Position numbers and translations under genes: made by a program
The notes under the pieces: generated by a model
What the model saw: the letters and a program-made list of their open reading frames with translations, nothing else
Databases searched by the model: none
Told to the model about the DNA's origin: nothing
In this document: positions 2,501-11,910 of the stretch, piece after piece
Numbering within the stretch: the first letter of the stretch is position 1
Layout: each line of letters starts with the position of its first letter
NCBI GenBank assembly: GCA_015709715.1
Contig: CP054184.1
Location: 1,535,001 to 1,599,000, forward strand
Source of the DNA: Nitrospira sp.
Lineage (GTDB): Bacteria > Nitrospirota > Nitrospiria > Nitrospirales > Nitrospiraceae
DNA length: 64,000 nucleotides
Reading direction: 5' to 3'

Positions 2501-2548
2501 GGTTGGAGGCGCCGGGCGGGTTCGAACCGCCGCATCGCAGTTTTGCAG
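2501..2548. repeat. attL, 48-bp copy of the tRNA-Cys 3' end
   Basis: Identical over 48 bp to 11832-11879; the match stops on both sides (base 2500 differs from 11831, and 2549 from 11880). It includes the T arm, acceptor 3' strand and part of the anticodon arm, but no 5' half, so it is not a functional tRNA gene. It marks the left junction of the element. Confidence 0.88.
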
Positions 2549-2664
2549 CTTGCCCGAGCGCTCTATGACGGACGAAGACCAACAGAGAGTGGTAGATACA
2601 AACAATCAAGCAGATCAATGACTTATGGCATTTTGACTGCGCCCTACTGAGACTGACTAGGACT

Positions 2665-2716
2665 CCGAACCGGGAGCAAAATCGGGAGTGGAACCGGGAG
2701 TAAAACCGGGATCAGG
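2665..2716 (+). repeat. Relic of an integrase 3' end (26-bp repeat)
   Basis: Bases 2686-2711 are identical to 11736-11761 inside the integrase gene. Around it one frame reads LRTGSKIGSGTGSKTG, the same Gly-Ser-Lys-Thr low-complexity tail as the complete integrase, but no core recombinase domain is attached. The rest of 2549-2826 holds no recognisable gene. The likely source is a decayed integrase of a second related element that used the same site, or a partial duplication. Confidence 0.5.
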
Positions 2717-2826
2717 GTTTGTACCTGTTTATATAGACTAGGACCGTATCCCTTTGGCGCCTCAATTTGCATTACAACGTATCGTCAACGCTTAACGTCT
2801 AACGATGCTCCGGATGTATACGATGT

Positions 2827-3534
2827 TCATTCGCTGAGAAACTGATCGACATGCTCAATCAAAGCTTTGAGGTCTGGAATCCGCGCTGGAAGGGTGAGGT
2901 AGAGCGTCTCATAACTCAAAGTGTTAAGGGTAAGAGAGGTGTTTGCTTTTTTCTTATCATACGAGATATTTGCTAGACTGTATATCCGCTTAAGATCCTC
3001 GGCTGGTCGGTCCCGCAATTCCAGATTGTCGTGACTAGGATCGAAACCAAACTGCGTTCTAATCCTAGGAATAGTCAGTTCGGCATTCAATCTTTCGAAA
3101 TGCGTGTATTCAGACATAAACCATGCTTCGATCTCCATTATCCCCAGGACAAACAAGACCTGTACCGGTACTGTCTTCAGCTTATAATTGAGGCCACTCC
3201 TAAGTTTTGGTATTTCGCTATGTGAAAAATCCGGGTAGACATCTCGGATCCCAATTATGAAACCGAAGCCAGCGTCTACCAGTTTGTCGTAATTGTCTCG
3301 AATGTCAGATTTGACGCGATTATCTGCACCGCAATCCACGAGCACCGCGAAATAACGATTATTCACCCCATTTGAAGTCTCAAGGGTAGTAATTTTACGA
3401 GCGCCGGATTGTCCGCCTCCGACAGCACGCCGCTTGGTAATGGTCACCCTCTTCCGCCCTGCTATTTCTTCAATCAAACGTTCGGCGAAGAGTTGTTCGG
3501 TTTGCCCTTCGACGAATATCGCAATCTTAGTCAC
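2827..3534 (-). CDS. TOPRIM-like protein, partner of the upstream ATPase (candidate defence effector)
   Basis: A 235-residue protein. The GTG at 3534 is chosen because GAGG lies 9 nt upstream and it overlaps the ATPase stop by only 8 nt; a TTG at 3564 would lengthen it by 10 residues. It starts with IAIFVEGQTEQLF (Glu9), then VLVDCGADN (Asp67, Asp71), GIRDVYPD and IMEIEAWFMSE, an arrangement seen in TOPRIM-type, DUF4276/RloB-like nucleases. Such proteins pair with AAA or ABC-type ATPases in abortive-infection systems (PARIS, AbiL, OLD/Gabija class). Translational coupling to the ATPase supports a two-gene unit. Assignment to a named system is not possible by eye, and the toxic or nuclease role is inferred. 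Confidence 0.6.
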   Translation of the reverse strand: MTKIAIFVEGQTEQLFAERLIEEIAGRKRVTITKRRAVGGGQSGARKITTLETSNGVNNRYFAVLVDCGADNRVKSDIRDNYDKLVDAGFGFIIGIRDVYPDFSHSEIPKLRSGLNYKLKTVPVQVLFVLGIMEIEAWFMSEYTHFERLNAELTIPRIRTQFGFDPSHDNLELRDRPAEDLKRIYSLANISYDKKKANTSLTLNTLSYETLYLTLPARIPDLKALIEHVDQFLSE

Positions 3535-4687
3535 TTGCGTTCGCCTCGCCAGCCTCACCGACAAAATCTACAGCAAGAAAATCAAAATTGTTCAGCCCGG
3601 TGAACTTAAAATCATCAAATATTTTCTTTGAGTTTCGATAATTATAGACTCTGCAATCCCCCCCTTCTCGACGTAGAAGCGACCAAGACTCTAAAGGCAC
3701 TGCATTCATTATAAAACGGTCATTTGTCGCCATAATGAGTTGAACGGAAGTGTGGGTAGCCTTTTCAATCAACAATTTAATTAGCTGGCAGGATCTATCG
3801 AAATCCAATCCTTCCCCAATATCATCCACGAGAATACAACTTGGGCGGCTATCCATAACTGCATAATTCAGATGAATGATCATAGACAGAACCCTAAACA
3901 TACCTTGGGACATTTCGTGCTGATAAATCATTGGTAGGAGAGTTCGCTCCTTTACGTACAATGCCACCATCTCCCCCTGGATTTGTATTTCCGGAGCTAC
4001 CTGAATAGATAGTGGTGGCGCCAACCCAACGTCCTCGATCTCGTAACCAACGGTCGCCATGTCTTTAATAATGTTTTGTTTAAATGGCTGGCCAAGTTTC
4101 GTATACCCTCTCCTATAGACTCCTGCTACCTGATTGGGATCCTTGGGGTTGAAACTGATTGGGGCTCCTTCCTTCACGATCAGCGCTAAGTGATCCTTCC
4201 CCATGGATGTTCCAAAGGCAAAAAATCTCAAGTCATTCCCCCACTGAAACAGACTCTCAAAATACGGATGTTGAATTGAATCCCTTCGAGCCGCGGAAGC
4301 TAACCGATTGGGAGGAGTCTGAAACTCAATCCACTTATTTTCTTTTACAGCATAAATTTTACCTATACCCTCGGCCCCTCGTTCTAGAAACTTTTTCCCG
4401 TCAATAGCAAATTCCTCACTTGTCACAATTTGGTCTGAATATTTCAGTGAATAGGTCAATAATTTATGGCCATCTTCGAAAACAACCTCGTAATCACCCG
4501 AAATATATTTTAGTGGGCTATCTTGAGATAGAAGACCGGCTAGGCCATTGATCACGTTAAGAGTTCTAGTCTTTCCACTAGCGTTCTTTCCTACTAATAA
4601 ATTTATCTCGTCAAAGGTGAGACCATTAACCCTCCAGGTGTTTGGCCTCCCCTCATGCTGGGAGTAACGCAGAGATTTAAGCTTCAT
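3527..4687 (-). CDS. AAA/ABC-type ATPase of a two-gene candidate defence system
   Basis: A 386-residue protein starting near a strand typical of SMC-like ATPases (INLLVGKNASGKT, Walker A at residues 33-40). It then has a signature-like EMSQGMFRVLSMI, Walker B CILVDDIGEGLD, and ATNDRFIMN. No transporter or long coiled-coil part is visible. This single-head ATPase type (AAA_15/AAA_21-like) is found in OLD, PARIS and AbiL-like phage defence modules, where it senses or restrains a TOPRIM partner. The next gene is such a partner, overlapping by 8 nt. It lies inside the tRNA-Cys element, a usual place for defence cargo. ATPase identity is firm; the defence role is inferred. Confidence 0.7.
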   Translation of the reverse strand: MKLKSLRYSQHEGRPNTWRVNGLTFDEINLLVGKNASGKTRTLNVINGLAGLLSQDSPLKYISGDYEVVFEDGHKLLTYSLKYSDQIVTSEEFAIDGKKFLERGAEGIGKIYAVKENKWIEFQTPPNRLASAARRDSIQHPYFESLFQWGNDLRFFAFGTSMGKDHLALIVKEGAPISFNPKDPNQVAGVYRRGYTKLGQPFKQNIIKDMATVGYEIEDVGLAPPLSIQVAPEIQIQGEMVALYVKERTLLPMIYQHEMSQGMFRVLSMIIHLNYAVMDSRPSCILVDDIGEGLDFDRSCQLIKLLIEKATHTSVQLIMATNDRFIMNAVPLESWSLLRREGGDCRVYNYRNSKKIFDDFKFTGLNNFDFLAVDFVGEAGEANASD

Positions 4688-5233
4688 AGTGGTAAGCCTG
4701 CCTTGCAGTGAGAGTTGAACGCTCTACTCTTGGGTTTATCCTAAAGACTGGCGTTTTCCTGGGGAAGATTGAGTGCCGGAGAATTCTACTACCTTTCCGA
4801 CTGAATGCCTATCATAGACTAGGGTTGCGCACACCTAAACCCTCGACAAAGCTGAGAGCTGATATGTCACCAATGCACAGAATGAGTTTCGTCCTACTTT
4901 GACCATATAGATCAAGTGAAGCGGGGGCTGCGCCCCCGATCCCCCCCGGCCGTCCGGTCCAGTGGTCCGGAACGGCCGGGCGGCCTCGTTGGGCGGAGTC
5001 TTTGCGTTCCTAATCTCCTCATAGTTTCAGTATTCCTCTTGTCTGCTCTGTCTTTGTAAGCAACGATCCAACAGAATAGCGGCCAAGCTGACGCATCGCC
5101 GTCACCACTTGAAAATAACCCTGCATTTCCTCCCTCTCACCCCCTGAGAAGCCAACAGGTGGTGACAGGGTGGGGCCATATAGAGCCTATAACTAAGTAT
5201 TAGAAGTAAAGATTTGTGAGTACCAGCATAGAA
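4688..5233. other. Gene-free stretch with two GC-rich hairpins
   Basis: No gene is supported. In AT-rich surroundings lies a GC block. Hairpin one has arms CGGGGGC 4922-4928 and GCCCCCG 4932-4938. Hairpin two has arms CCCGGCCGT 4945-4953 and ACGGCCGGG 4972-4980, extended inward by CCGG/CCGG. It separates the defence pair from cld. It could be a terminator pair, a dispersed repeat, or the nicking origin of the element's Rep-like protein. There is no T tract. Confidence 0.45.
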
Positions 5234-5259
5234 GTGACCACCTGTTCCCAGGTGGTCAC
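5234..5259 (-). terminator. Perfect 11-bp stem-loop after cld
   Basis: GTGACCACCTG (5234-5244), loop TTCC, then CAGGTGGTCAC (5249-5259), starting 29 nt beyond the cld stop codon. The stem is strong, but on the minus strand only a weak T-rich stretch follows, so it may be a terminator, an mRNA-stabilising end or a protein-binding palindrome. Confidence 0.45.
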
Positions 5260-5287
5260 CGTGTTCTGGAACGCGCGAGCGAATAGA

Positions 5288-6082
5288 CTAGCGACTGAGA
5301 ATATCGAGGATTTCATCCAATGGTCGAATGGTCCCCAACAGGAGAGGATCACCGAAACGCCTATTATGACGGTTCTCCTTGACCTTGAGCAATCCAGTCA
5401 CAAGATTGTTGAAATCATCCAGCTTGGATGTTTCAAAGTAGGTAATAAAATCCCAATCATCCAACCCGCTGGAGTGATAGAGCTTCCGTTTCACCGTCTT
5501 CAAGTATGCGACCGTCGCATCCGTGTGTTCCTTCATCAGGCCTGTTCGGGTGTCTTGTCCAGAAATCCACCATTCTGCGTCCTTGCGTATAGGAACCACT
5601 ATAACGTATGGGCTGCCCTGAGGTGGCGGTGTCTTCAACTCCCCCTTCAGTTCTTCTGGGAAGCTAGGGACATAATTTAGGGTTTTGGTGATGCCATTGA
5701 AGGTGTCAGTATTTTTCATATCCATCCCCATAGTGGTCCCCATGAGGTCTAACAAGAAGTTCTGATTATGAACCATCTCTTTCGAGTGAATCCTGACAAG
5801 TACATCAGCTCTCTCAGACAGACCACGAAGCAAATGCGTATCGACTATTAACTTATCGGCGTGCTTTTCGAACACCTTTTTCATTTCGGAGGCCGCCTTG
5901 ACACGCGCTTCATGATCCATCTGCCACCAGTGCTCCCCCATCTTGAACACAGCAAACGTTGCGTAGACACCAGGATCCTTTAAGAGCTTGTCGTGATCCA
6001 TGGCCGCCTCACTCACTACAGACAACATGGGAAGGAAGCATAATAGAAGCGCAACCATCGAAATCTGCCTGATTCTCTTCAT
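5288..6082 (-). CDS. cld: Chlorite dismutase, periplasmic, pentameric-type
   Basis: A heme enzyme that splits chlorite into chloride and O2. The start is set at 6082, where AAGGAG precedes the ATG and a Sec signal peptide begins (KRIRQIS, hydrophobic core to about residue 26, VSEAA cleavage region); an in-frame ATG at 6136 lacks these. Mature length (about 238) equals the long clade-1 enzymes of Nitrospira. Diagnostic residues are in register with the Nitrospira defluvii enzyme: proximal heme ligand His186 (KEHTDA), distal Arg199 (TVKRK), and Glu236 (KVKEN) that bonds the ligand. The motif LYHSSGLDD is also conserved. It sits on a tRNA-Cys element beside its own two-component genes and an operator-like array, which suggests acquisition and regulated expression. 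Function is near certain on motif grounds. Confidence 0.95.
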   Translation of the reverse strand: MKRIRQISMVALLLCFLPMLSVVSEAAMDHDKLLKDPGVYATFAVFKMGEHWWQMDHEARVKAASEMKKVFEKHADKLIVDTHLLRGLSERADVLVRIHSKEMVHNQNFLLDLMGTTMGMDMKNTDTFNGITKTLNYVPSFPEELKGELKTPPPQGSPYVIVVPIRKDAEWWISGQDTRTGLMKEHTDATVAYLKTVKRKLYHSSGLDDWDFITYFETSKLDDFNNLVTGLLKVKENRHNRRFGDPLLLGTIRPLDEILDILSR

Positions 6083-6135
6083 AAGTCCGTTCTCCTTTTC
6101 GGTTAAAAGGGCTGGTACAACCCAATGCATGGTCA

Positions 6136-6189
6136 AGCATAGCCCTGCCCCTTTACATCGATCTCACGAAATTGTCACATTTTTATCAC
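6136..6189 (-). promoter_or_regulatory. cld promoter region: three GTGA boxes at 11-bp steps and a -10-like octamer
   Basis: Read on the minus strand, GTGA occurs at 6189-6186, 6178-6175 and 6167-6164, exactly one half-site per 11 bp, the spacing used by OmpR/PhoB-type regulators. A TATGCT within the octamer AGCATAGC (plus strand 6136-6143) lies 22 nt downstream and could be the -10. The 16-bp block 6174-6189 matches 13 of 16 bases of 8482-8497 in front of the regulator gene, and the octamer is repeated there too. Confidence 0.65.
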
Positions 6190-6233
6190 GCCTGATGTGG
6201 CGAGCGGCCCGTAACGGTCGAGAACAATAGAGA

Positions 6234-7712
6234 CTAGAAGTGCACGGTGGGCAGTTCAAAGCTGATGATGGTTCCGATGTTTGGTGTACTCTCCGCTCGA
6301 ATTGTACTTCCATGTAGCTCTAGAATTCGCTTAGTAATGGCCAGCCCGAGCCCAGCTCCTCCAGGCTGATTTTGTCGATTCGCCCTATAAAAACGATCAA
6401 AAATATAAGGCAAGTCGTGATCAGCGATACCACAGCCAGTATCAGAAATTCGTATCATAACCGAGCCGGATTCGTGGCTTAACGAAATCGCAATGGTCCC
6501 TCCGCTCGGTGTATAGCGAGTAGCATTATTGATTATGTTTTCTAGCGCCCGCTCGATGAGGCCGATATCAGCCTCCACAAATGGCAGATCATCTGTAAAA
6601 CTGCTCTTTAAGGCTATCCCCCTATTTGCGACGGTGAGTTGAAACTTTTGACACACATCCTGGACAAGCTCGGCTAACGAAAATTGTTCGCATTGAATGC
6701 GAGCTTCACGCGAATCTAAGCGAGCCAATTCAAAGAGTTCCCCCACAAGCTCCCTAAGCCGTTGGCTTTGCTTGAGGGCAACGTCGAGAAACGTCCGGTA
6801 TTCCTCTCGTGTAAGCGTCCCTTCTTTCATCAGTAACGTTTCCAGATACCCATGCAAGGATGCCAGGGGGGTACGCAAATCATGGGACACATTGGCCACC
6901 AACTCACGCCGAAGGATGTCCGTCTGCTTCAAAGTGGCCACTTGCTGAAGAATTCGTTCTACCATCCCATTGAATGTGGACCGGAGCCGATCAATTTCAT
7001 CACTATTCCGCTCAGGAATAAAATCCTGAGGATGCAGCACGAGCGCCTCTGAAAAATCGCTCTTTGCGAACGTTTCCATCGTCGATGCTAGTTTGGTTAG
7101 CCTTCTGGTGAGCATGTTGAATAGAAAGAGGCCGCCCAAAAGAGCGAACAGTAAGCCGGTAAGTGCTGCCCAGAGACTCAGCCGGAAGATATAGCTCCGA
7201 TTCAGCATATCGGCGACGGAGTCATACTCCTCTCCGCCAAGAACAATGTACAGATATCCTGTTGGTTGTCCGTGTAAGGGTATGGCTGAAACAGAAAAGA
7301 CCTTCTGTCGAGTCGCATCACGGGGATCGTCACCAAGAATAGGAAATGCGTCCGCCTCGGTGAGAAAACGATGTATTGGTTCTAACGAGACAGCCGAGCG
7401 CTTGACCTTCTCAGTGGGAGCGGAGAAGTTGACTATGCCCCCATTCTCATCAAGCAAGTACATCTCAATGCTCGGATTGATAACCATAAGTAGGTGAAAC
7501 AGTTCTTTCAGAGCGTACGGACTCACCTCTCCTTGGCTGCTTAGTAACTGGTCAGTAACAATGTTTCTGGCCAGAGCACGGTTCAGCTTCTGATTCACTT
7601 CTTGCTGATACATGCGCGTCGTGAAGACCATTAGGAGGGTGTATAGAACCCCAACCGCACAAAACAGGAAGAGCAACACAAGGGCGAGTTTGCCGTAAAG
7701 TGACCGCGACAT
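6234..7712 (-). CDS. Membrane sensor histidine kinase, partner of the next regulator
   Basis: 492 residues. TM1 is at about 9-31 and an extracytoplasmic sensor region at about 32-175 has no recognised fold by eye. TM2 is at about 178-200, followed by HAMP, then HisKA with VSHDLRTPLASLHG (phospho-acceptor His277). The HATPase domain shows N box NIINNATRYTP, G1 DTGCGIAD, F box FDRFYRA and G2 GLGLAI. It starts 2 nt after the regulator stop with AAGGA upstream, so the two are co-transcribed. It lies immediately upstream of cld, on the same strand, within the tRNA-Cys element. The signal is unknown; chlorite, oxidised chlorine species or an envelope cue are guesses from context. Confidence 0.88.
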   Translation of the reverse strand: MSRSLYGKLALVLLFLFCAVGVLYTLLMVFTTRMYQQEVNQKLNRALARNIVTDQLLSSQGEVSPYALKELFHLLMVINPSIEMYLLDENGGIVNFSAPTEKVKRSAVSLEPIHRFLTEADAFPILGDDPRDATRQKVFSVSAIPLHGQPTGYLYIVLGGEEYDSVADMLNRSYIFRLSLWAALTGLLFALLGGLFLFNMLTRRLTKLASTMETFAKSDFSEALVLHPQDFIPERNSDEIDRLRSTFNGMVERILQQVATLKQTDILRRELVANVSHDLRTPLASLHGYLETLLMKEGTLTREEYRTFLDVALKQSQRLRELVGELFELARLDSREARIQCEQFSLAELVQDVCQKFQLTVANRGIALKSSFTDDLPFVEADIGLIERALENIINNATRYTPSGGTIAISLSHESGSVMIRISDTGCGIADHDLPYIFDRFYRANRQNQPGGAGLGLAITKRILELHGSTIRAESTPNIGTIISFELPTVHF

Positions 7713-7714
7713 GG

Positions 7715-8434
7715 TCAGTCCTTTAAGCCGGATCCTTCTAGTTCACAGAATTTGTATCCGACGCCCCACACAGTCAGAATAAAGTCGGGCTTGGCCGAAT
7801 CCTTTTCAATCTTGGCGCGCAATCTGTTGATATGGGAATTTACCGTGTGTTCATAGCCGTCGTGACCGTAGCCCCAGACCGAATCGAGAAGCTGACTGCG
7901 CGTATAAACTCTGCCTGGATGGGATGCAAACTGCAGGAGCAAATCGAACTCTTTGGCCGTGAGATCCCTCAAGCTGCCTCTCACTGTGACCTTCCGTTTT
8001 TCAACATCGATGAAGAGGCCCTTTGCGCGGATAGTTTTCTGAACGTCCTGCGTCTTATCTCTAAATGCTTCAGAACGGCGGAAGAGGGCCTTTACACGTG
8101 CGAGCAGTTCTCGAACACTAAATGGTTTAGTAACATAGTCGTCAGCACCAACTTCCAGCCCAAGGACCCTGTCTATTTCTGAGGATTTCGCAGTCAACAT
8201 GAGGATGGGTGTATAGGTGGGGAGCGATCGAAGCTGCCGACATATCTCTAACCCGTCGATGCCAGGCAGCATCACGTCAAGAATAATAAGGTCATATCTC
8301 TTCGAGAGCACACATTGAAGGCCATCCTCTCCGGTTTTGGCGATCTCTACGGCATATGCGGTGTCGGTCAGGTGCATCTCCAAGAGCCGACCAATATCTA
8401 AGTCGTCTTCTACGACAAGAATTTGTTTAGCCAT
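7715..8434 (-). CDS. OmpR/PhoB-family response regulator
   Basis: 239 residues from the ATG at 8434; another ATG at 8443 adds three residues. The receiver domain begins KQILVVEDDLD, the phospho-acceptor is Asp53 in IILDVMLPG, and the conserved Thr/Lys stretches are MLTAKSS and YVTKPFSVRELLAR. The C-terminal winged helix ends in the typical pattern VNSHINRLRAKIEKD and TVWGVGYKF. It precedes the kinase gene by 2 nt. Two GTGA half-sites 11 bp apart lie 48 bp upstream of the start, and three lie upstream of cld, so autoregulation and control of cld are the simplest reading (inference). It belongs to the tRNA-Cys element cargo. Confidence 0.9.
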   Translation of the reverse strand: MAKQILVVEDDLDIGRLLEMHLTDTAYAVEIAKTGEDGLQCVLSKRYDLIILDVMLPGIDGLEICRQLRSLPTYTPILMLTAKSSEIDRVLGLEVGADDYVTKPFSVRELLARVKALFRRSEAFRDKTQDVQKTIRAKGLFIDVEKRKVTVRGSLRDLTAKEFDLLLQFASHPGRVYTRSQLLDSVWGYGHDGYEHTVNSHINRLRAKIEKDSAKPDFILTVWGVGYKFCELEGSGLKD

Positions 8435-8469
8435 GAAAACCATATATTCGAGGCAGCAGGAATGCCTTT

Positions 8470-8497
8470 AGCATAGCGTCCGTCACAAATTCATCAC
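8470..8497 (-). promoter_or_regulatory. Promoter region of the regulator-kinase operon, same motif as at cld
   Basis: Minus-strand GTGA at 8497-8494 and 8486-8483 (11-bp step), then AGCATAGC (plus 8470-8477) containing a TATGCT -10 candidate 7 nt after the boxes. The 16-bp core is 13/16 identical to that at cld. The boxes would overlap the -35 position, which fits activation or autoregulation. Confidence 0.6.
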
Positions 8498-8613
8498 AGC
8501 CATAGTTTATAGACCGAACTGAAGAAAGCCGGGCATGCTGAGGAAATGTCCGCTTTCAATGCCAAGGCCTGGTTTAATCGCGCGAATATTCCATGTGTCG
8601 GTAGCCGAGAATT

Positions 8614-8865
8614 TTAAGAAGCGAGACTACGAGTGGTCAGCCCCGCACAGTCGATACAGAGCCAGATTTCGCATGTGACGTCATGCTCCCTATAATAAAA
8701 CCGCACCCACGACCGTTCAAATTGGCAGAACTCACACAGCCGTTCCTTCGTATGCTCAGGACAGAGCCAAGCTTTGCGCGCCCGGTCATAGGTGGTCGCT
8801 TCCCGTCCGCAACAGGCTGGACCGAACAGACTCGGCAGCTTCAGATCACATCGATGCCAGATCAT
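8614..8865 (-). CDS. Small Cys-rich (zinc-ribbon-like) protein of the element
   Basis: 83 residues from the ATG at 8865, chosen because it follows the Rep-like stop by 2 nt with a GGAGGT site. Cys pairs include CC at 18-19, LCPEH, CEFC and CIDC, enough for one or two structural zinc sites. No named family was recognised. It is the last gene of the xis-rep operon, so a role as accessory factor in element replication or mobilisation is a guess. The product is hydrophilic with no signal peptide or TM segment. Confidence 0.6.
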   Translation of the reverse strand: MIWHRCDLKLPSLFGPACCGREATTYDRARKAWLCPEHTKERLCEFCQFERSWVRFYYREHDVTCEIWLCIDCAGLTTRSLAS

Positions 8866-8867
8866 CC

Positions 8868-9581
8868 TCACACCTCCTGATAGACGAGTCCCTTCCCAAG
8901 CACCAGTTGCAAAATCGTGCCGCTGAACCAAATGGGATGGCCCGAGAGCAGATCCTCCCAGGTCTTGATGAACACGATCCGCGGGATCTCAATCTCGCCT
9001 CTGATCCGGCGATAGGCGTTCCGGGTGGACCATTGGTGCCGCATCTCTTCCCACAGTCGGCTAATTGGGAACCCGAGGGAGCGCTTCCAGGACCAGCACA
9101 TATTCACGTAGCCGCATTGATCCTGGACATATTGGCTGATGACGTACCGGCTGAGTCGATTGCGGGACCGATGACTCGGCTGATAGGCCTTGATCCAGAC
9201 CACCGGAGCCCCGTGGAGAGCTTGCCACTGGGACGAGAGCCATTCCTGGGAGACCCAGAACCTTCGGGCACGTTCCCCATCCGGCACCCGCCAGGCCCAG
9301 AAGATATGAAGCACGCCATGCCCCTCTTCCGTCCGGACCTGGTAATACTCCAACCCCTGAAATCCCAGCTGGCGTTCAATCCGCTGGCGCAGCTGCTTGT
9401 GGTGATAGGTCAGCTTTTCCGCATCCCCGCCTTCTGCCGTGGAGAGCGTCACCCAGAGGACTTGGAACTGGTGGCACTCCCAGAACCACAAGAGCGACCG
9501 CACCCGGTGGTAGCCTCGTTTCTGTTTCCTCGTCCATTCCCCGGCGACGGGCTCCCGCCGGAACTCCTTCCAGCGGCTCAT
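8868..9581 (-). CDS. Rep-like protein, possible degenerate HUH replication initiator
   Basis: 237 residues, rich in Trp and Arg. The middle shows EYYQVRTEEGHG followed by VLHIFWAW (His92), resembling motif 2 of rolling-circle HUH initiators, but the second His of the canonical H-U-H is not present. A later RYVISQYVQDQ (Tyr146, Tyr151) resembles the catalytic Tyr motif YxxKY. It overlaps the xis-like gene by ATGA and is coupled to the Cys-rich gene downstream, an operon layout seen in integrative elements with their own replication module. The family call rests on weak motifs; a novel or inactivated initiator, or an unrelated DNA-binding protein, remains possible. Confidence 0.45.
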   Translation of the reverse strand: MSRWKEFRREPVAGEWTRKQKRGYHRVRSLLWFWECHQFQVLWVTLSTAEGGDAEKLTYHHKQLRQRIERQLGFQGLEYYQVRTEEGHGVLHIFWAWRVPDGERARRFWVSQEWLSSQWQALHGAPVVWIKAYQPSHRSRNRLSRYVISQYVQDQCGYVNMCWSWKRSLGFPISRLWEEMRHQWSTRNAYRRIRGEIEIPRIVFIKTWEDLLSGHPIWFSGTILQLVLGKGLVYQEV

Positions 9582-9787
9582 CGGGCAGCCTCCGCTTGAG
9601 GAATGGCCGGCCTCAGGCCGGCAGCGAGAATCCGTTCCAATTCCTCAATGGGAATCCGCACGGCACGCACGGACGGCTTCACATAGGCAATCTGCCGTTT
9701 CAGGATGTATTTCCTGATCGTGCTTTCTTTGAGTCCTAAGCGTTCGGCCGCTTCTCGAATGGTGATCAATTTTGTACTCGGGACCAT
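9578..9787 (-). CDS. Excisionase/MerR-like helix-turn-helix protein
   Basis: 69 residues from the ATG at 9787, which has a strong AAGGAGGT upstream. The sequence LITIREAAERLGLKEST followed by IRKYILKR is the winged HTH_17 (excisionase) pattern: an N-terminal helix-turn-helix, then a wing with RAVRIPIEELERIL. Such proteins direct integrase toward excision and repress their own operon. It overlaps the Rep-like gene by 4 nt (ATGA) and is divergent from the zinc-finger/integrase pair across a palindrome-rich intergenic region, as expected for the directionality switch of the element. A purely repressor role is possible. Confidence 0.75.
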   Translation of the reverse strand: MVPSTKLITIREAAERLGLKESTIRKYILKRQIAYVKPSVRAVRIPIEELERILAAGLRPAIPQAEAAR

Positions 9788-9821
9788 CGGGCACCTCCTT
9801 GGTAATGAGCGAATCATTAGT

Positions 9822-9884
9822 GTTATGCCTTGTATACGTGATGCATAACGTGTCTTGACACGCATTACCATTGACGAGGTACAC
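9822..9884. promoter_or_regulatory. Divergent control region with palindromes
   Basis: GTTATGC (9822-9828) is mirrored by GCATAAC (9843-9849), and next to it lies CGTGTC-TT-GACACG (9849-9862). The second palindrome contains a consensus TTGACA -35 (9855-9860) for the rightward genes, with GTACAC 18 bp further as a weak -10. A repressor bound here would block the promoter of the regulator/integrase pair, and it faces the xis-like operon on the other side. Confidence 0.45.
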
Positions 9885-9992
9885 TTCCCAAGAGTTTTCA
9901 GTCCGAAAGTGGCTCGTTCACCTCCAGTTTTTTCGTATGAAATGGGATGGAGTAATGAAGCTGCCGAAGCCAGCTACAGAAGGAGAGGTCAG

Positions 9993-10709
9993 ATGAACAT
10001 AGACCGAGCCGCAATCTTTGAGCAGTTCTACGGCGAGATGAAGAAGGCCAGAGAGCGGATTCTCACCACAGCAGACGGCGAAGTCGGCTGGCTCTTGAAG
10101 TTTGTCCAGACCGACCTAGAAGCGCTCACGCCAAGTGAATGGATGGTTCTGGCTTTCGAGGTAGCCAGCTTTGTGGATGACGTCGCGAATCGCCATGGGG
10201 AAGAAATCGCGACGGAAGGAGGATGGAGCGTCCAATCTATCCCAGGAGAGAAGTTTCGTGGCACTATTCCAAGCCGCGCAGAGGCCAAAGAGATTCAGAC
10301 CATGGTCCTCCGCAGCTTAGAGAACTTATGGAAAAAGGCAGTGGCTGCCTTCACGTTTCCCCAATTCACGATCATTGTCACGTTGCCGGGCGCGGACCAT
10401 GAACGCAAAGGGAGTGTGTTTGTTGCCACAAAGCGAAAAGTGAAGGAGTTTGAATATCGGTTCGCCCATTTATTGGTCGACTATTCCGGGCGAATTCGGC
10501 GTTGTCCAGAATGCCAACGGATTTACCTCGCCATTCGATTTGATCAAACCTACTGCGGTCCTCGGTGCCAGACACGAGTGGCCACTCGGAAATGGCGAGA
10601 GAAACATCTACCGAAGAAACAAAAAGCCTCTGGAGATACGACTAGCACGAAGGCCGATTCGGCCAGAAAAGGGCGAAAGGGAGGGTCCGATGGCAAGGCG
10701 AAACGGTAA
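9993..10709 (+). CDS. Zinc-finger (CGNR-like) protein of the element
   Basis: 238 residues from the ATG at 9993, which has AGGAGAGG just upstream; upstream in-frame starts lack one. The N-terminal 170 residues are mostly helical and unrecognised. The C-terminal zinc finger reads CPEC, 13 residues, then CGPRC followed by RVATRKWRE, the spacing and Arg-rich tail of CGNR/RNA-polymerase-like fingers. It ends in a Lys/Ser-rich tail. It overlaps the integrase start by 20 nt, so the two are co-translated. A regulatory or nucleic-acid-binding role in integration is inferred. Confidence 0.6.
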   Translation: MNIDRAAIFEQFYGEMKKARERILTTADGEVGWLLKFVQTDLEALTPSEWMVLAFEVASFVDDVANRHGEEIATEGGWSVQSIPGEKFRGTIPSRAEAKEIQTMVLRSLENLWKKAVAAFTFPQFTIIVTLPGADHERKGSVFVATKRKVKEFEYRFAHLLVDYSGRIRRCPECQRIYLAIRFDQTYCGPRCQTRVATRKWREKHLPKKQKASGDTTSTKADSARKGRKGGSDGKAKR

Positions 10710-11892
10710 AGACCGTGGAGTGGTGTTTAAACAAGGCGGTTGGTGGGTTCGCCTGTATGTGAATGGCCGGGAGAAATGGTTCCGGGCGGACTCCAAGAGC
10801 CAAGCCAAGACGCTGTACGGTCGGTTGCGGTCCGAGGCGCGCGAGAATCGCTATTTTCCCGAGAAGTATGCCGTTTCCAAAGAGTTGACCCTCCGAGCAT
10901 GGATTGCGCGGTATCTGGAAGGAGTGACCTCGCCAGGTCTTCGGAATGTGCATCGCTATGGAAAGTTCTGGTCGAAGCTCCTAGGGCGGAAGCTTTTGAC
11001 CGAGATTACCGCCGACGACTTACGGCATATCCAAGCCAAAATGAAGCACAAGGGCACACGCACCGCCCGAACGATTAATCGCTACTTTGGAGCCCTACGA
11101 CGTATCCTGAACTTGGCGATTGCCGATGGTCTGCTTTCCGCCAATCCCATCAAAGGCGTGAAGTTCTTTTCCGAGCCTGGTGGGCGGCTTCGCTTCCTGA
11201 GTGATAAGGAAATCTCCAGCCTCCGGGATACCTTGCCTCCGGAGCACTGGTTGATTGTGGCCTTTGCACTCGAAACAGGCCTACGCCTGACCGAGCAGTT
11301 TCATTCCCGCTGGGACTGCCTGAACACGGAACAGGGCATCTTGACCATTCCATTGAGTAAGTCAGGCAAGACCCGCCACGTCATTCTGACGGATGCCGCG
11401 CTGGACATCGTCAAGGGTCTCACCTCCTGGATGCACAGCCCCTTTCTTTTCCCGAGTCCCCTCACCTCCGCACAACCGATGCAGGGGCGAAACTTTGTGG
11501 TGAAGATCTATGAACCTGCCTTGAAACGAGCAAAAATCGAAGGAGTGACCTGGCACACCCTCCGGCATACCTTCGCGTCTCGGGCTGTGATGGCAGGAGT
11601 CGATATCCGGACCGTCCAGGAATTGATGGGCCATTCCACGATCACCATGACCATGCGCTATGCGCATCTCTCCCCGGCTCATTTACGCACAGCAGTGAAT
11701 CGAGCGAGTTTGGGGGCAATTGCCGCGAAAAGTGCGAGTGGAACCGGGAGTAAAACCGGGAGTAGCGATAATCAGCGGGTTGAACAGGGTCCGGTCAGAA
11801 TCACCGAACCCTCTGAGATATTTACAGGAATGGTTGGAGGCGCCGGGCGGGTTCGAACCGCCGCATCGCAGTTTTGCAGACTGCTCCCTTAG
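10690..11892 (+). CDS. Tyrosine-type site-specific integrase
   Basis: 400 residues from the ATG at 10690 (GGGAGG upstream). It has an N-terminal arm-binding region, a SAM-like core-binding domain (about 65-155) and a catalytic domain with Arg199 (ETGLRL), His289-x-x-Arg292 (TWHTLRHTF), His315 (LMGHST) and the nucleophile Tyr324 (MRYAHLSP), so all active-site residues are present. After a Gly-Ser-Lys-Thr tail, the frame runs through the attR repeat and ends in TAG inside the tRNA-Cys gene read antisense, so the last 20 residues are encoded by att/tRNA sequence. Excision would join the frame to sequence at 2549-2621 and give a different tail. It very likely integrates the element at tRNA-Cys. 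Confidence 0.92.
   Translation: MARRNGKDRGVVFKQGGWWVRLYVNGREKWFRADSKSQAKTLYGRLRSEARENRYFPEKYAVSKELTLRAWIARYLEGVTSPGLRNVHRYGKFWSKLLGRKLLTEITADDLRHIQAKMKHKGTRTARTINRYFGALRRILNLAIADGLLSANPIKGVKFFSEPGGRLRFLSDKEISSLRDTLPPEHWLIVAFALETGLRLTEQFHSRWDCLNTEQGILTIPLSKSGKTRHVILTDAALDIVKGLTSWMHSPFLFPSPLTSAQPMQGRNFVVKIYEPALKRAKIEGVTWHTLRHTFASRAVMAGVDIRTVQELMGHSTITMTMRYAHLSPAHLRTAVNRASLGAIAAKSASGTGSKTGSSDNQRVEQGPVRITEPSEIFTGMVGGAGRVRTAASQFCRLLP
11832..11879. repeat. attR, 48-bp copy inside tRNA-Cys
   Basis: Identical to 2501-2548. It covers the 3' part of the tRNA gene from the anticodon arm to the CCA end, plus three flanking bases. The integrase frame reads through it. Confidence 0.88.
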
Positions 11893-11910
11893 CCACTTGG
11901 GTACGGCGCC
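11835..11910 (-). tRNA. tRNA-Cys (GCA)
   Basis: 76 nt with encoded CCA. The acceptor stem GGCGCCG pairs fully with CGGCGCC, the discriminator is U, and the anticodon stem GCAGT/ACTGC encloses CTGCAAA with anticodon GCA. The T arm is GCGGG/CCCGC around TTCGAA. The intact gene lies at the right border of the element. A TATAAT box 10 nt upstream indicates expression. Confidence 0.95.

Follow-up and report, generated by a model that had tools for sequence, protein, structure and literature searches.

A tyrosine integrase gene overlapping its own attP in a Nitrospira tRNA-Cys island, with different reconstructed C-termini in the integrated and circular states

The window analysed here is a stretch of 64,000 nucleotides from a Nitrospira genome of 4.16 Mb on a single contig. 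It holds an integrated element of 9.3 kb sitting in a tRNA-Cys gene (2501-11879), an assignment that is conclusive because an attL/attR pair, an exact 48-bp direct repeat with copies at 2501-2548 and 11832-11879, lies around the tRNA gene. The features concerned are the following.

2501..2548, no strand: attL core, 48 bp, a displaced 3' fragment of tRNA-Cys
2549..2621, plus: circle-only 3' end of int, 24 codons past the core (SLPERSMTDEDQQRVVDTNNQADQ) and TGA at 2619-2621, in frame only in the excised circle
2668..2713, plus: arm-type-like repeat array on the other side of the core, 4 units with a period of about 12 bp, at +120 to +165
9581..9871, minus: small HTH_17 protein (PF12728, E=3e-9), candidate excisionase (RDF) by its putative role
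9855..10709, plus: gene of unknown function upstream of int, overlapping the int start, without Pfam match
10690..11892, plus: tyrosine integrase Int in its integrated-state form, 400 aa, from ATG 10690 to TAG 11890-11892 inside tRNA-Cys
11725..11889, plus: post-catalytic tail of Int, codons 346-400, predicted disordered, overlying the attP arm sites and core
11742..11763, plus: two arm-type-like repeats (AACCGGGAGT) at -90 and -78 from the core, within the int coding region, encoding GTGSKTGS
11832..11879, no strand: attR core, 48 bp, the tRNA-Cys 3' half supplied by the element, read in frame by int as GGAGRVRTAASQFC
11835..11910, minus: tRNA-Cys(GCA), the integration target, restored by the element

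The element also carries, between its att sites, a chlorite dismutase gene (5288-6136, minus strand; PF06778, E=1.4e-31), which is here mobile cargo in Nitrospira, together with a histidine kinase and a response regulator (6234-8443, minus strand). At its attL end lies a pair encoding an AAA_21 ATPase and a DUF4276 (TOPRIM-like) protein (2827-4687, minus strand), with AbiLi/AriA/HEC-01-like matches in PADLOC, making it a candidate defence pair. The genome as a whole has some 20 integrase-like matches, many of them adjoining tRNA genes, a heavy island load.

Int is a tyrosine recombinase both by its Pfam domain (PF00589, E=2.5e-29, 102.7 bits against a cutoff of 27.1) and by its catalytic R-K-H-R-H-Y residues. 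These are R199, K224 and R292, invariant among 56 relatives, and H289, H315 and Y324, nearly invariant in the same set. A sequence-only reading of this DNA had proposed that the int frame runs through attR and ends antisense in tRNA-Cys, and this was reproduced: the gene passes through the 48-bp core and stops at TAG 11890-11892. That reading placed the last 20 codons in att/tRNA sequence; its stop codon was correct, and the count is 19 codons and one base. Its expectation of about 24 other residues in the circle became exactly 24 when we joined position 11879 to 2549 in silico, the frame staying open to TGA 2619-2621. Hence the protein would differ between the two states, as had been suggested. 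After the shared ...SQFC, the integrated form ends in RLLP (400 aa) and the reconstructed circle form continues with SLPERSMTDEDQQRVVDTNNQADQ (420 aa). Residues 1-396, including the catalytic Y324, are common to both, and the ends alone differ. Predicted tryptic peptides could tell them apart: TAASQFCR marks the integrated form, TAASQFCSLPER and SMTDEDQQR the circle form. In the structure prediction, the fold ends near residue 349 and pLDDT is below 50 from residue 350 onward.

The long form of Int, with the circle tail, is reconstructed and not observed. We found no circular or tandem copy with int and the circle tail in Nitrospiraceae genomes, a search of IMG/VR returned only an integrated relative, and among plasmids the best-covering matches were only about 30% identical. 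One could also argue that the translation of the int tail is irrelevant, an earlier true stop or the end of the transcript excluding it from the protein; the first of these had been named beforehand as a result that would overturn the proposal. The sequence gives this no support. There is no in-frame stop before 11890 on inspection, the frame being open to the tRNA, and a plus-strand scan revealed no terminator-like site between int and the core. Furthermore, the selection on the tail of tRNA-Arg(UCG) relatives described below requires translation. We thus regard this explanation as extremely improbable.

The overlap between int and its attachment site is not peculiar to this element. Searches in the genus and the family identified Int relatives; in the closest genomes their identity is 93-100%, in other genera 67-77%. 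At least 14 Nitrospiraceae tRNA-Cys integrases (67-100% identical) have the same overlap layout, and the 14/14 in our tree form one clade in which all end in RLLP inside the tRNA. The layout recurs in relatives at tRNA-Arg, -Lys and -Gln; those in tRNA-Arg genes (UCG, UCU, CCG, ACG), about 50% identical, likewise extend into their tRNA. The comparison of C-termini among related elements that the sequence-only reading called for thus gives the same tail overlap in more than 20 records. In the Gln(UUG) clade, int ends before or at the core edge. This clade probably lost the overlap, since the tree places it inside core-crossing clades. We located attL in about 25 related elements, taking these ends from family genomes, fragmented ones included, and built the circle frame for each. 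In one genome (G015), a Cys-type attL core and tail at 2529198 (plus strand) and the integrase at 3378536-3379675 (minus strand), with its attR end, are about 850 kb apart and in opposite orientation. This could be the trace of a large inversion that broke within an element of this type, or the two may be separate remnants.

Why should an integrase gene lie over its own attachment site? In most of about 37 elements, repeats of the AACCGKGAST type stand on the int side at -67/-55 or -92/-80 from the core and on the other side at about +133/+144/+156. They look like arm-type integrase sites. This anatomy is conserved, and neither the target (Arg, Gln, Cys, Lys, Gly or Met) nor core crossing by int alters the fixed arm-core-arm spacing. 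The int-side repeats are coding, reading GTGSKTGS or GTVTKTVT, and hence the int tail is laid over attP; the overlap follows from an attP, arm-type repeats and core, that is packed into the int 3' end. A further recurring DNA motif, like GAYTGAGTGTGAYTG, occurs about +30 to +45 right of the core in several lineages and is perhaps an excisionase or host-factor site. Core crossing itself was considered as a sign of selection and rejected. Tallied by lineage among integrase frames reaching the core, the frame is open through it in about 9/14 lineages, where the count of open frames in each core predicts about 8. Crossing is therefore close to chance, and the overlap alone is no evidence of selection.

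These observations suit a rival explanation, that the swap is a pure by-product of a compact element. Both tails would then be inert, and whatever is conserved to the right of the core would be conserved as DNA (arm, Xis or host-factor sites). Crossing occurs at chance frequency, the DNA spacing is fixed through and past the stop codon, and the Int tail is predicted to be disordered. The tails of two lineages, tRNA-Cys and tRNA-Arg(UCU), add to this with an omega near 1. We give this explanation considerable weight, somewhat short of an even chance; what speaks against it comes from the frame of the Cys tails, from tRNA-Gln relics and from the Arg(UCG) lineage.

Homologues of the circle-only tail SLPERSMTDEDQQRVVDTNNQADQ were found in 15 distinct tRNA-Cys elements. 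Codon maximum likelihood on these 15 tails gives an omega of 0.88 (p=0.54), with no detectable amino-acid constraint, and there is no third-position enrichment. The stop codon wanders, mostly between codons 21 and 25, and the DNA register continues beyond it. We accordingly dropped the similarity of these tails as a case of protein conservation. The frame itself tells a different story from pure by-product: none of the 15 tails has a stop within 20 codons, where redistributing the observed per-site changes over the tree predicts 5.35 (P=0.010); beyond the tail end, 11/15 have a stop. This is suggestive of an open frame being maintained. The possibility that Int is a built-in state sensor, raised by the sequence-only reading, is plausible and right in principle for the family, as the Arg(UCG) tail indicates. 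In the tRNA-Cys lineage the tail is nearly neutral and its spacing is explained by the attP architecture; only the maintenance of the frame is suggestive there, and a sensor in the window's element is unproven. The Cys tail may have no function at all.

A stronger version would make the swap a dedicated directionality switch in this element, the circle tail being needed for integration or blocking excision, so that without this tail the element would be locked in place, a model already put forward for the Myxococcus phage Mx8. The two C-termini in the sequence and the open frame in 15/15 distinct Cys tails are compatible with this, and Mx8 provides a precedent, its integrated-form enzyme being described as less active (PMC4701971) or as having a changed site specificity (PMC6070905). 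We nevertheless think it unlikely: the Cys tail lacks amino-acid constraint, and the excisionase-like HTH_17 gene could give ordinary directionality control.

The sister lineage at tRNA-Arg(UCG) differs. Its circle tail (for example GAQSTLETDSDQGGQMDMFSL, followed by the stop) has an omega of 0.26 by codon maximum likelihood on 13 distinct, related tails of 21 codons (LRT 20.7, p=5e-6); the catalytic domain stands at 0.04 and the linker before the core at 0.66, not significant. Third positions are enriched for change in the last 10 codons (P=0.001). The simulation of frame maintenance is by itself not significant in this lineage (P=0.19). This codon evidence indicates purifying selection on the circle-only tail of the Arg(UCG) elements. 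The tRNA-Arg(UCU) tails, by comparison, have an omega of 1.24, not significant, and show no constraint. Two controls provided by nature fit selection on the Arg(UCG) tail. In the tRNA-Gln clade, homologous tail relics carry in-frame stops in 3/4 cases. Five Arg(UCG) elements (L166, L167, L170, L171, L281) carry the tail twice: besides the one joined to the core, a detached copy with degenerate flanks lies about 840 bp inward of attL, which we read as an old left-end relic within the element. These copies are untranslated because upstream indels shift the frame. In the same five genomes, the core-joined tails have an omega of 0.32 (p=0.019) against 0.92 for the detached copies, which removes the latter as a threat to the claim of selection. 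The low omega and the third-position enrichment of the Arg(UCG) tail, absent from the detached copies, argue against a pure by-product, as do the loss of frame in the Gln relics and the open Cys frame. The state-dependent integrase is thus real in sequence and probably functional in the sister lineage.

What could the Arg(UCG) tail do? It ends in QMDMFSL before the stop and resembles the sliding-clamp motif QL(S/D)LF, which is typically C-terminal (PMC9690074). The conserved end reads QMDMF, QLDMF or QMDIF, close variants of that motif in the same C-terminal position, and the pattern Q[LMI][SD][LMI]F matched 10/10 variant tails tried; when one tail was shuffled, the chance of a match was 0.0015. 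QTSIF is present in the host DnaE, around residue 932. Recombinases with such an end are known: IS transposases (e.g., IS1634) have C-terminal beta-clamp motifs, Q-L-x-L-F-like (PMC4549789). In these the motif is constitutive, whereas in the Arg(UCG) elements it would be present only in the free circle, and it is absent from the window's tail. The likeliest reading of the tail is a short linear protein-binding motif present only in the circle state. More doubtfully, the free-circle integrase could have a clamp-binding C-terminus that integration removes, so that it is recruited to replicating DNA only while extrachromosomal; the window's relatives would share the layout with another tail function. 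If true, this would be a recombination-edited recombinase coupling integration to the replication fork.

The explanation we prefer, and think probable, is that attP is packed in the int 3' end and recombination swaps the tail, mostly as a by-product in the Cys lineage and under selection in Arg(UCG). Everything that concerns function in it is what we infer. Two arm-type sites are codons of the disordered Int tail, with the core as the last in-frame stretch. Since attP occupies the int 3' end, recombination therefore swaps the last residues of the enzyme. The integrated Int ends 4 residues past the core in the tRNA (RLLP), and the circle Int would end after 24 element-encoded residues. The cell would presumably contain the circle-encoded version when the element integrates and the prophage-encoded version when it leaves. 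In the window's lineage, the frame would be kept open while the sequence is free. For the Arg(UCG) elements, the tail found only in the circle would be a selected functional C-terminus, probably a short protein-binding motif (QMDMF, sliding-clamp-like), which integration takes away and excision restores.

Integrases altered by their own reaction are already known, and the state sensor is not a new principle: Mx8 (IntP/IntR, intX) already does so. Its attP lies inside a tyrosine integrase gene, and when the phage integrates, 112 residues are replaced by 13 (PMC6070905, PMC4701971, PMC4383910); the Mx8 and SSV integrases both extend across attP (Islander paper, PMC4383910). The Nitrospira Int is of this kind, with the core (11832-11879) inside the int frame, the circle frame open to 2619-2621, and the C-terminus replaced while the catalytic domain stays whole (residues 1-396 shared), the enzyme being changed and not destroyed. 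The swap is smaller: about 24 residues give way to 4, and they lie in a disordered tail far beyond the catalytic Tyr. Unlike Mx8, the Nitrospira element is a 9.3-kb island at tRNA-Cys, and in a lineage related to it the circle-only tail shows selection at the codon level. In streptococcal ICEs integrated in rumA, att also lies inside the integrase gene and the excised form encodes a different C-terminus (PMC4701971), but these use a serine integrase and a protein-coding target instead of a tyrosine integrase and a tRNA. Archaeal suicidal integrases (SSV1, pTN3, pT26-2) have attP in the integrase gene, which is split on integration (PMC8371274). They are inactivated by this split, whereas the integrated Nitrospira Int, with 400 aa, retains its full catalytic domain, which is whole in both states.

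Mycobacteriophage BPs resembles our case in having attP inside a gene whose C-terminus is changed by integration; there the gene encodes the repressor, integration shortens it and switches its function, and the lost tail is an ssrA-like degron (PMC4557955). By analogy, the Int circle tail could be a degron, the protein being unstable in the circle and stabilised by integration. The free form is likewise the longer one, and the Arg(UCG) tail ends in a hydrophobic FSL. Here attP lies in int, however, and the circle form ends in NQADQ without an ssrA-like tag; neither this end nor ...DMFSL resembles the ssrA-like ...AA, and the conserved part is the Q-x-D-x-F pattern. We therefore consider a degron quite improbable.

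The kind was known from Mx8 and the rumA ICEs; what our analysis adds is a family with a conserved arm-core layout, codon-level evidence and a candidate clamp motif. The short list of integrases altered by their own reaction thereby comes to include a broad Nitrospirota family, whose islands target tRNA genes and share one attP architecture. One of its lineages has a tail that only the free circle encodes and that evolution appears to protect, and close lineages provide natural controls. Hence, the question of whether an integration-coupled exchange of the C-terminus regulates recombination becomes directly testable.
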